The notes under the pieces: model-generated
What the model was told of the DNA's origin: nothing
The model's database searches: none
What the model saw: the letters and a program-made list of their open reading frames with translations, nothing else
Position numbers and translations under genes: made by a program
Source: Bdellovibrio sp.
GTDB taxonomy: Bacteria > Bdellovibrionota > Bdellovibrionia > Bdellovibrionales > Bdellovibrionaceae
Assembly: GCA_025359945.1 (NCBI GenBank)
Contig: JANYDD010000031.1
Span: 1 to 64,000 of the forward strand
DNA: 64,000 bases
Direction: 5' to 3'
Shown here: piece by piece, positions 46,208-50,082 of the stretch
Layout of the letters: each line of letters starts with the position of its first letter
Numbering within the stretch: position 1 is the stretch's first letter

Positions 46208-48940
46208 ATGATTTCCAATTTTAAAGGATTGTTATTTTGTGCGCTGTTTGCAGTTATGGTAACATTCACGATATCGCCCCTGACCGGCTGCACGGGCAGT
46301 AAAGAAAAAAAAAACGAAGAGACTCAAAACTCGGCACCGGCCCCTGGCAACAGCGGTTCCGCTCCCCCGCCTGAATCTTTGGATAAAGTTTTGTCTCAAG
46401 CGCAAGTGATCGCTTTTCAAAATTGGAAAGATCAAATTGTTAAAAGTTGTGACGCCGAAGAGATTCTGACAAAAAAAACCGACACAAATATAGGAACCAT
46501 CGGCTTTGACTTCAAAGCCTTGCTTCGAAAGAATCACGGATCAAAACTTATCGAACTTGAAACCAATCATTTCGCCGTCCTGGCATCTGGAAAAAATTTT
46601 TTTAAAGATTCGATTTCTCGAATTGTAAAGACTGATCCTAAAACTGGGGAATTGAATTCGCTTCGTTTCGACAGGTCCAAAGAAAATTGCACCGTCTCTC
46701 TGAACGATGAAATTTTATATTCCACAGAAGTTTATCAGAACTTGGTGGTGTGGGGGGATTTTAATCTTAATAAAAGAATAGCTCCGGTTGAAGAATCGCT
46801 TCTTAGTCTCAACCGCGCTCGGTCGATCAGTGAAAAGACTGGATTGGTGAAGCTGAATGCCTACAGCCTAAAAACTGTTGTCGATGATTTTTTAAAACCT
46901 AACGATGTCTTGTATCGTCGATTGGCAACTTATCTAGGTCTTCCGTTTGAACAAACCCGTTTTTCGATTCTGCCTTTCAAAAAAGAATATGTTGAAGAAA
47001 ACAGGTTTGAAAATAGAAACTATTTTATAAAGACTCTTGGGCCTTGGCCGTCCGTCGATTTTGCAACGGATGGGTTGTTCTCGAGTGACGATTTTTTTAT
47101 TCCGCTAAAACCCTTTTCGGATCTTTCGAATCAGAAAAGTTATCCGGTGAAGTTCAGAATGCAGTTTCAACCGAAAGATGATCTTAATATCGTCCGCGCA
47201 TTTGATTTCGAAACTCAGATGAATCCTGCGCAAAACTGGGATCAAAATTCGACACTCAATTTAAATTCAGTGACCTACCAGGGAAATCTTCAACCCACGG
47301 TCAGCGATTTTGTGATGTGCCTTAATTTGCGATTTGAAAATCAATTTCATTCGAATGATTCGTGGGCCGAGGTCGTTCAGCCTTCGCCGGAAAACTTATC
47401 CCACAGCTGCGAAATCTATCAAGGGCCCTGGGACAGTAGAATCACCGACCAGGCCTTTGGCCCTCTCTTCTTTAAAGTGTTAACCGGGACGGATTTGTCA
47501 TTGATCCAATCTTTTAACCAATGGGACGCCTATTTTTTAGCGGCATACAACCAAGCCAGGAGTCTGGGAAAAACGCTGGCTGAATATTTTCAAGCGGTGG
47601 GATCCACTGCCAATTGGGTTAAGAAATCCGATGACCTGACCGCCGTCCTCGATCGTTTTCAGTCAGCACCAGGGCAGCTGCCGGCCGATGTTCGCGAGTT
47701 ACCGGTGTTTGCAACACTTTCCGGGTATGAGATTAAACCCGAAACTTTGCAGCAGATTTTGACCGCTTATTCTAAATACGGGTCAAGCCAAACCATGAAA
47801 TATTTTTTTGAGGCCGTTTTTAAAGATTTTCGCCGTGGAAAAATAATTTCCGCAAAAGATCTTCAGTTTATCAATAGCATCGACACCGAATACTTGGAAA
47901 TATTTCAGATTGTATCCGAAAACGGAGCCAAACTGAGCTACCCGCTTTTAAATGCAGCTGATGTTTTTCTGCGCGATAAATTATGGAGCAAAGATCAGCT
48001 TAAAGACTTGAATCGAATTCTCATGACTCTGGTTGACCTTTACAAGACGGACGTAGTGATATCAAAGGCTTCGGTAAAAGTGAATGAAATGACCTTAAAC
48101 CTGTATGAGACTTTTGGATTATCTTTTGTTCAGCGCACACTTAAAAGTCTTCACCTTTTGAGTTTTGTTTTTGAGGGCAGTTTGGAAAATTTTATCGTCG
48201 CTACTGGCACTGGCCGAGCTTACGACCCAAAATTAACCGAGTACTTGGAAAATCTGTTCTTAGATAACCAACGGGGTTTCAATGAACTTAAATCATTGTA
48301 TACAAATAATGAGTCCCTTGAACTGCCTTGGTTCTCAAGTTTTTTCATACCGAATATTTTGCCAACGATGCCTTCGATGACGGAACTTCAAAAGTACACG
48401 CTTTTGTCGTTGTCATTGCTGGATTTCAAACGTCGCGACAAGAAAAAATCAACATCGCTAATTAGCACTTTTGAATCGGATTTTTCGGTGATATCTAGAA
48501 AATTTTACGAGATATTAGCCGTGGATCAAGAGGTCTCGGATTTCGAATCTATGTCAGAACTTATTTTCTTTTCACCCAAGTGCAGTTCTCCGGGACTTTT
48601 TGAAAGTGCGTCCTCAAAATATAAATGTTTGCAGACCGTTTTCTATAGAGAACAAGGCGGATTATTTAACCCTCAGATCAGGCCCCTGATCACGGGCTTA
48701 ACTCAAAATCTCATTCGGATTTTTAAAGAAAATAATAATCCCTTTCAATCCAACTGGCGGCAAAAATTTCTTGATTTTTATTTCTCAAAAAATTGGTTGG
48801 CGTGCTCGAAAGATTTCATGGAAAAACAAGGCTTAAAAATCCAAAGCAGCTTGCAGGCATTTAGCCAGCGGCCTAACTCAGATCAAAGAACAATCGAGAT
48901 GGAACAATTTTTGGATTCCTTACAAACCTGTGGCAACTAA
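46208..48940 (+). CDS. Large lipoprotein of unknown function
   Basis: A 910-residue protein with a type II signal peptide (lipobox LTGC, Cys about 28) and a Glu/Asn/Pro/Ser-rich linker after it. The rest has no repeats or domain I recognise. It contains a scattering of Trp and Phe and an elongated helical C-terminal half with several Cys (CSSPGLFESASSKYKCLQ and a final CGN). Its length and lack of close family suggest a lineage-specific envelope protein. A MITE-like insertion begins three bases after its TAA. Confidence 0.7.
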   Translation: MISNFKGLLFCALFAVMVTFTISPLTGCTGSKEKKNEETQNSAPAPGNSGSAPPPESLDKVLSQAQVIAFQNWKDQIVKSCDAEEILTKKTDTNIGTIGFDFKALLRKNHGSKLIELETNHFAVLASGKNFFKDSISRIVKTDPKTGELNSLRFDRSKENCTVSLNDEILYSTEVYQNLVVWGDFNLNKRIAPVEESLLSLNRARSISEKTGLVKLNAYSLKTVVDDFLKPNDVLYRRLATYLGLPFEQTRFSILPFKKEYVEENRFENRNYFIKTLGPWPSVDFATDGLFSSDDFFIPLKPFSDLSNQKSYPVKFRMQFQPKDDLNIVRAFDFETQMNPAQNWDQNSTLNLNSVTYQGNLQPTVSDFVMCLNLRFENQFHSNDSWAEVVQPSPENLSHSCEIYQGPWDSRITDQAFGPLFFKVLTGTDLSLIQSFNQWDAYFLAAYNQARSLGKTLAEYFQAVGSTANWVKKSDDLTAVLDRFQSAPGQLPADVRELPVFATLSGYEIKPETLQQILTAYSKYGSSQTMKYFFEAVFKDFRRGKIISAKDLQFINSIDTEYLEIFQIVSENGAKLSYPLLNAADVFLRDKLWSKDQLKDLNRILMTLVDLYKTDVVISKASVKVNEMTLNLYETFGLSFVQRTLKSLHLLSFVFEGSLENFIVATGTGRAYDPKLTEYLENLFLDNQRGFNELKSLYTNNESLELPWFSSFFIPNILPTMPSMTELQKYTLLSLSLLDFKRRDKKKSTSLISTFESDFSVISRKFYEILAVDQEVSDFESMSELIFFSPKCSSPGLFESASSKYKCLQTVFYREQGGLFNPQIRPLITGLTQNLIRIFKENNNPFQSNWRQKFLDFYFSKNWLACSKDFMEKQGLKIQSSLQAFSQRPNSDQRTIEMEQFLDSLQTCGN

Positions 48941-48943
48941 AGA
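48936..48943. repeat. Left 8-bp target-site duplication
   Basis: ACTAAAGA at 48936-48943 is repeated exactly at 49050-49057, flanking the MITE-like element. The left copy contains the TAA stop of the upstream gene. Confidence 0.72.
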
Positions 48944-49049
48944 CTTACATATGCACATGACGCCACCTACCTGTCGTGTTCGACTGGAGCGCATTCAAGT
49001 CGACAATATTCGACAAGGCGAATTTGCTGGCGTCATGTGCATAGGTAGG
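48944..49049. mobile_element. MITE-like element, 106 bp, 22-bp terminal inverted repeats
   Basis: The ends match as inverted repeats in 20 of 22 positions: 48944-48965 and the reverse complement of 49028-49049 share TATGCACATGACGCCA. An 8-bp direct repeat (ACTAAAGA) borders it exactly on both sides. The inside holds a second, imperfect stem (ACCTGTCG with CGACAAGG) and a short inner stem, so the whole element can fold as a hairpin. It has no coding capacity, so transposition would need a transposase in trans. Which transposon family supplies the ends is not clear. Confidence 0.75.
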
Positions 49050-49057
49050 ACTAAAGA
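49050..49057. repeat. Right 8-bp target-site duplication
   Basis: The second exact copy of ACTAAAGA at the element's right border, identical to 48936-48943. Confidence 0.72.
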
Positions 49058-49086
49058 TCATCTAGTTTGAAATGTAAATTCAGGCC

Positions 49087-49193
49087 GGGGAGTTGGTCTG
49101 CTGGCTTGATTAACCAACTTCAAAGGTTGGTCGTCAAATCCGGGTATTGGAATTCCCTCATCAAAGCATCAACCTTTCAGTCAATGCTTTGAT
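49087..49193. other. Structured intergenic segment with competing hairpins
   Basis: AGTTGGT (49091-49097) can pair with ACCAACT (49113-49119), and ACCAAC can pair instead with GTTGGT (49126-49131); the two folds exclude each other. A separate 10-bp perfect stem ATCAAAGCAT/ATGCTTTGAT lies at 49160-49193. This sits between convergent genes. It could end the sigma-factor transcript or be an unannotated RNA; no family match was recognised. Confidence 0.4.
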
Positions 49194-49234
49194 AAGCGCC
49201 CCTGAAACTTCTTCAGATTAATTTTCGATTGGGA

Positions 49235-49435
49235 CTATTTGGAATCTTTCCAAGGTATGTCATTTCGCCAGTACCACTTGTCTTTGTTTTTGGGGTTCTG
49301 CACGTCTGATTTAATTTGGGTCATTACCTTCGCGTGAAATCGGGACAAAAAATCCTGCTGAATTTGCGGGTCATCGGCATTGCGTTTGACGATTCGCCAG
49401 GCCCAAATTAATTCTTTTTCTTGGTCTTGATTCAT
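49235..49435 (-). CDS. Small protein encoded behind the ECF sigma factor
   Basis: A 66-residue charged protein (WAWRIVKRNADDPQIQQDFLSRFHAKV) without a membrane span or Cys. Its ATG overlaps the sigma-factor TAA by one base (TAATG), which suggests coupled expression. Position suggests an anti-sigma or accessory protein, but the usual zinc anti-sigma motif HxxxCxxC is absent. Function unknown. Confidence 0.6.
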   Translation of the reverse strand: MNQDQEKELIWAWRIVKRNADDPQIQQDFLSRFHAKVMTQIKSDVQNPKNKDKWYWRNDIPWKDSK

Positions 49436-50082
49436 TATGCCTCCCGCATACTTTTAAATTGGACAGTTTTGTTCATGTCATATTCGTCAGTAGGGATTTC
49501 GCTTGCAAAGCCCTCTAAATCTTTTTTTATTTTTAAAAGACCATGCCTGTAGTTGGCTTTGGCTGTGTCGTAAGGGCACTCCATGATATCGGCAATCTCT
49601 TGAAACGACAGATCTTCAAAGATTCGCAAGACTAGGGCTTCCTTTTGGCGTTCAGGCAGTTTTTCAATCAGCTCGTGGACTCGGGCTTTGAAATCCTCTT
49701 GAACAATTTTTTTGTCTGCCCACGCTGAAACTGAATAATGAACTTGGTCTAAATCCAAAAAATCTGATTTTTTGCTGCGTAGAGAATTTCGTGCTGTGTT
49801 TAACGCGATCTGGAACAACCAGCTCTTGAAGCTGGCTCGCTCTTCGAAAGTATCTAATTTTTCAAAGGCTTTTATAAAGGCCTCCTGGGCAATATCTTCA
49901 GCGCGGGCCAAGTCCTTTACAAAGCGCACACAGGTTCTTATCAAAGCTCGTTGATGCCGGGTCACAAGTTGCGAGAAGGCCGAAAGATCTCCGGCCTTTG
50001 TCATCTGTACGAGCTCCAAGTCAGTGAGATCTCCATCTTTCTGTAGCATAGGACGCTCCTTTTTTGCGTTTCGGTTAGTCAC
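49435..50082 (-). CDS. ECF-type RNA polymerase sigma factor (sigma-70 family)
   Basis: The 215-residue protein has region 2 (LVTRHQRALIRTCVRFVKDLARAEDIAQEAFIKAFEKLDTFEERASFKSWLFQIALNTARN) and region 4 (LPERQKEALVLRIFEDLSFQEIADIMECPYDTAKANYRHGLLKIKK) with its helix-turn-helix. Regions 1 and 3 are missing, which makes it an ECF factor. A tail of about 25 residues follows. It is the first gene of a two-gene operon with the 66-residue protein; the upstream region may hold its own target promoter. Confidence 0.93.
   Translation of the reverse strand: MTNRNAKKERPMLQKDGDLTDLELVQMTKAGDLSAFSQLVTRHQRALIRTCVRFVKDLARAEDIAQEAFIKAFEKLDTFEERASFKSWLFQIALNTARNSLRSKKSDFLDLDQVHYSVSAWADKKIVQEDFKARVHELIEKLPERQKEALVLRIFEDLSFQEIADIMECPYDTAKANYRHGLLKIKKDLEGFASEIPTDEYDMNKTVQFKSMREA

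Follow-up and report, generated by a model that had tools for sequence, protein, structure and literature searches.

The 106-bp segment at positions 48944-49049 of the window, the whole stretch of 64,000 nucleotides that was analysed, is best explained as a miniature inverted-repeat transposable element (MITE) that is non-autonomous, is moved in trans by a transposase of the IS1595 family, has recently expanded and, in the window, sits where a lipoprotein gene has its stop codon. We give this reading as a whole a probability of about 0.92. The window belongs to a Bdellovibrio-like draft genome (G000; 2.74 Mb, 106 contigs, 96% complete), in which the element is a real and recently active MITE. 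This identity, proposed in a preliminary description of the DNA, is borne out by 41 full copies and the varied sequences of their 8-bp duplications, by an empty-site counterpart for the copy in a type-II NADH dehydrogenase (NDH-2) gene and by an insertion sequence (IS) that encodes a transposase and has closely similar ends. The copies, the ends and the duplications of the MITE are seen directly, and its mobilisation by an IS1595-family transposase is, from sequence comparison, very probable.

At the window locus, positions 48936-49057 have the layout ACTAAAGA-106 bp-ACTAAAGA. The exact 8-bp target duplication ACTAAAGA occupies 48936-48943 on the left and 49050-49057 on the right. Between the two copies, on the forward strand, lie the left terminal inverted repeat CTTACATATGCACATGACGCCA (48944-48965; family consensus CTTACG...), the 62-bp interior (48966-49027) and the right terminal inverted repeat (49028-49049; reverse complement CCTACCTATGCACATGACGCCA). 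The 22-bp repeats match at 20 of 22 positions. The coordinates, the repeat match and the duplication had all been given in the preliminary description and were reproduced to the base. Its contention that coinciding borders of repeat and duplication are hard to obtain by chance is in keeping with a scan of the window, in which 1451 spans of 60-600 bp had exact 8-bp direct repeats immediately at their borders; the element scored 20/22 inverted-repeat matches and the next best span 12/22. The interior forms smaller stems on folding and displays no transposase and no visible likeness to the interior of the IS, and the longest frame in the element has 35 codons. Being shorter than 500 bp, bounded by terminal inverted repeats and without a gene for a transposase, the element fits the definition of a prokaryotic MITE.

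A search of the genome for further copies, which had been recommended as a check, recovered 41 full-length copies over about 30 contigs, plus 5 broken ones; the outcome that would have spoken against mobility, no other copy, did not arise. The full-length copies show 0-7 differences from the window copy and a mean pairwise difference of 1.9%. They fall into 15 haplotypes, the commonest of which is present in 14 copies and differs from the window copy by a single base, at position 6. An exact 8-bp duplication flanks 35 of the 41 copies, with 35 distinct sequences. The remaining six comprise one copy with a duplication of 7 bp, one in which the two 8-bp sequences mismatch and four that lack a duplication. 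Three of the last four are located near contig ends, and one of the three is broken by a nested insertion. The target duplications display a weak palindromic A-A-A-T-T-T (AAA/TTT) preference. Many dispersed copies, with duplications that are constant in length and differ in sequence, are what is expected of a MITE, and the family has recently expanded in G000 to at least 41 full copies.

The preliminary description had also advised looking for empty sites, and a counterpart of one was found for the NDH-2 gene (G000:C69:49445-50805), which is split by the copy at C69:50306-50411. When the flanks were joined computationally, keeping a single copy of the 7-bp duplication, the resulting ORF matched Pyr_redox_2 and NDH2_C. 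At the insertion point the gene is continuous in 36 relatives from the same family, and in G000 it matches as two pieces (residues 1-132 and 129-416). The window copy itself has just a distant paralogue for comparison. Another copy interrupts the ORF of an IS3-type integrase-core transposase.

The distribution of the copies relative to genes was analysed by counting as in-gene those within a simple-call ORF of at least 100 codons. Because about half of the assessable copies were in genes (18 of about 37), against 89% expected from the coding fraction of the window, insertions in genes are purged or avoided; the expectation is unchanged by the target preference. The host gene is truncated by 12 of the 18 in-gene copies, and six (L004, L006, L012, L027, L052 and L056) are passed through in frame, one of them inside a DUF4423 domain. 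The element together with its duplication measures 106 + 8 = 114 bp, that is, 38 codons, and of its six frames one (LRMHMTPPTCRVRLERIQVDNIRQGEFAGVMCIGR) stays open throughout the 41 copies (0/41 with a stop in frame +1). It could be argued from this 38-codon unit, from the pass-through insertions and from a further case in a 289-aa gene (L082) that an element of MITE origin has undergone partial domestication into a coding insert, in the manner of the Rickettsia palindromic elements. This is improbable. With an insert of the Rickettsia type, most in-gene copies would be expected to keep the frame of the host, and here 6/18 do so, the other insertions being truncating. The in-frame enrichment over the expectation of 0.162 is not strong (6/18, P = 0.058; 7/19 with L082, P = 0.025), and the comparison was post hoc, chosen after seeing the data. 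Further, the MITE family is so young that its frame should still be intact even if nothing selects for it. It is just as improbable that the 114-bp open-frame footprint has been selected for tolerance in coding genes, which would turn an IS1595-type MITE into a transposable insert of 38 residues for the proteins of a Bdellovibrio-like bacterium; if true, it would have arisen independently of the Rickettsia palindromic elements and be equivalent to them.

The case for a non-autonomous MITE served by an IS1595 transposase comes in part from an IS that was found by searching relatives with the MITE. This 952-bp IS (G029:C94:111-1062) has the ends CCTACCTATGCAC[C/T]TGACGCCG, 20/22 identical to the right end of the MITE, and encodes an intact 291-aa transposase with matches to DDE_Tnp_IS1595 (3.4e-19), Zn_ribbon_IS1595 (5.2e-9) and NF033547 IS1595 transposase (3.1e-34). 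A transposase with closely matching ends, for which the preliminary description had suggested looking, is present in a relative. No recognisable 8-bp duplication accompanies the 952-bp IS, and a broken relative of it is present in another genome (G010). In G000, IS1595 ends with the sequence CCAACCTATGCACTTGACGCAA were identified at contig breaks, three of them right ends (C20, C47 and C69) and one a left end (C34), and the C-terminus of the resident IS1595 is 94% identical over 36 aa to the transposase of G029. The resident ends agree with those of the MITE at 19/22 positions on the right and 17/22 on the left (3 and 5 differences). An element driven by IS1595 is expected to share its ends and to make 8-bp duplications; at the right end the MITE shares 19/22 positions with the resident IS and 20/22 with that of G029, and its duplications are of this length. 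Duplications of 8 bp are usual for IS1595 elements, to which the Merlin elements of eukaryotes are related (PMC8101967). In the proposed mechanism, an IS1595-family DDE transposase would recognise in trans the 22-bp ends, which have the core TATGCACNTGACGC in common, and would move the 106-bp unit; the unit would be joined to staggered positions in the target and the 8-bp duplication would arise when the gaps are repaired, a transposition step that we infer from the family.

No complete IS1595 copy is assembled in G000, where just ends at contig breaks were found, and an autonomous copy in this genome was accordingly rejected. The contigs end about 141 bases into the IS, probably reflecting the behaviour of a k=141 assembly at a multi-copy repeat. 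In contig C127 of the metagenome-assembled genome (MAG) G126 a left IS end follows GTAAAAAT, and in contig C47 of G000 a right IS end is followed by GTAAAAAT; if both contigs are from one organism, this suggests that GTAAAAAT might be the IS's own 8-bp duplication. Given this incomplete assembly and the 3 (right) to 5 (left) mismatches between the visible IS1595 ends and those of the MITE, a different IS, unassembled or lost, may in fact be the driver.

The 8-bp duplications could also come from a transposase of a different family, the likeness to IS1595 ends being coincidental. The IS66 and ISL3 groups are examples of families that make duplications of this length. Such a driver is improbable; it would fit with the fact that no assembled IS of G000 has ends identical to those of the MITE. 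However, the six MITE and IS1595 ends that were compared have 16/22 terminal positions in common, all in a single register counted from the outermost base, and among the 66 family genomes exact matches to CCTACCTATGCACNTGACGCC beyond the MITE copies were found solely in G029 and G010. There are four such ends; three adjoin an IS1595 transposase ORF, and the one on contig C116 of G010 does not. Both findings argue against this alternative.

The gene next to the window copy encodes a predicted lipoprotein of 910 aa (46208-48940, forward strand) and terminates at the TAA at 48938-48940, inside the left duplication copy. The description of the insertion as lying at this TAA was correct, and the claim that it recreated the stop needs amendment, as the left duplication copy strictly keeps the stop in place. 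The MITE landed across the stop codon, left the protein and its end unaltered and added a predicted hairpin to the 3′ untranslated region. The window copy has no direct empty site because the search for orthologs of the host gene gave just a paralogue and weak N-terminal matches. This paralogue (G000:C95:7029-9809; 27-34% identity) could be aligned through the last residue and is without an element after its stop. The 910-aa lipoprotein has hardly any match among other genomes of the taxonomic family.

Folding of the window element as RNA gave a minimum free energy of -50.3 kcal/mol (z = -7.3; 0/200 shuffles), and the hairpin is located between the lipoprotein gene and a convergent ORF (49435-50082). 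The earlier suggestion that the element may add a hairpin or terminator holds for the predicted hairpin only; an intrinsic terminator was rejected, since 0 terminator-like sites (a G+C-rich hairpin followed by a T-run) were detected in 48700-49500. A role of the predicted hairpin in transcript stability is possible. Alternatively, the family might be immobile and conserved for a function, either as a structured RNA or as a regulatory palindrome of the REP/BIME or attenuator type. This would agree with the strong hairpin, the high copy number and the depletion from genes, but it is hardly credible given the 35 different duplications in 35/41 copies, which exclude it as sole explanation, the copies inside conserved genes and inside the IS3-type transposase ORF, the lack of any credible match in Rfam, for which a structured RNA family was rejected, and the absence of related sequences from 62/66 family genomes.

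Outside G000, the full MITE was found in just two contigs of the MAG JANXMF (G089 = G126), from the same order and another family, and no further copy was detected among 141 genomes of the order, G000 included. The JANXMF copies have the duplications GTCGCTAG and TGGGCGAA and are identical to G000 haplotypes. The G+C content of the MITE-bearing contigs is 44-45%, against 53% in most other sampled contigs of the bin, and their tetranucleotide profile is closer to that of G000. They may be mis-binned and derive from the same or a related organism; with mis-binning the simpler reading of this composition, horizontal transfer across families was set aside. Three JANXMF contigs of 44-45% G+C (G126:C7, C237 and C127; L119-L121) hold two MITE copies and one IS1595 end. 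The 289-aa gene of L082 (1060-1929, reverse strand) is located near an efflux-pump gene and carries the MITE in frame just before a stretch reading IIATPTDGDALIHVHP; this region was not found in G000.

The kind of element is already known, since an IS1595-type MITE with 8-bp duplications is on record in Haloquadratum walsbyi, where the ISHwa6-related MITE has 165 bp, 7 copies, IR 25 and DR 8 (PMC3852290). Both MITEs belong with the IS1595 family and have 8-bp duplications, inverted repeats of 22-25 bp and a short interior free of transposase. The G000 MITE differs from this archaeal element in sequence, in length (106 bp) and in copy number (at least 41). Rickettsia palindromic elements and QMITE2 of Coxiella can add residues in frame to host proteins, and QMITE2 has about 50 copies with 7-11-nt duplications (PMC10969869, PMC5896051). 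The G000 MITE is likewise a small palindromic repeat able to add in-frame residues; unlike those elements, it is in frame in about a third of its in-gene copies and its partner transposase family can be identified. MITEAba12 of Acinetobacter is also a non-autonomous IS-derived MITE (PMC6382973), with 1-22 copies per genome (PMC10969869) compared with at least 41 in G000. Within the literature searched, no paper combined 'Bdellovibrio' and 'miniature inverted-repeat'. In this Bdellovibrio-like lineage a minimal transposon has clearly undergone a recent burst. Its many copies have fixed ends and clean duplications, and their insertions in genes include truncating as well as in-frame ones, which provides a natural experiment on MITE spread and the survival of insertions.

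Some copies in G000 depart from the usual structure. In one of them (L038:741-846; G000:C13) the outer ends are exchanged, with CCTACC on the left and CGTAAG on the right, and the same copy has the paired stem changes A17G/T90C, a pattern that inversion or conversion of the stem might leave. At C20, C41 and C57 there are longer sequences that share the right end of the MITE; they were rejected as its parent and look like another IS inserted at one TA of MITE copies. Four MITE copies (C20:42400, C41:2865 and C57:7953, corresponding to L040, L041 and L042, and C96:65, L016) are broken by another element with the ends TAGTAGGTAAC.., the short readable piece of which gave no family match. It was inserted at TA, three times at the same TA of CAGGTAGG, and from this target our guess is that the element is IS630-like.
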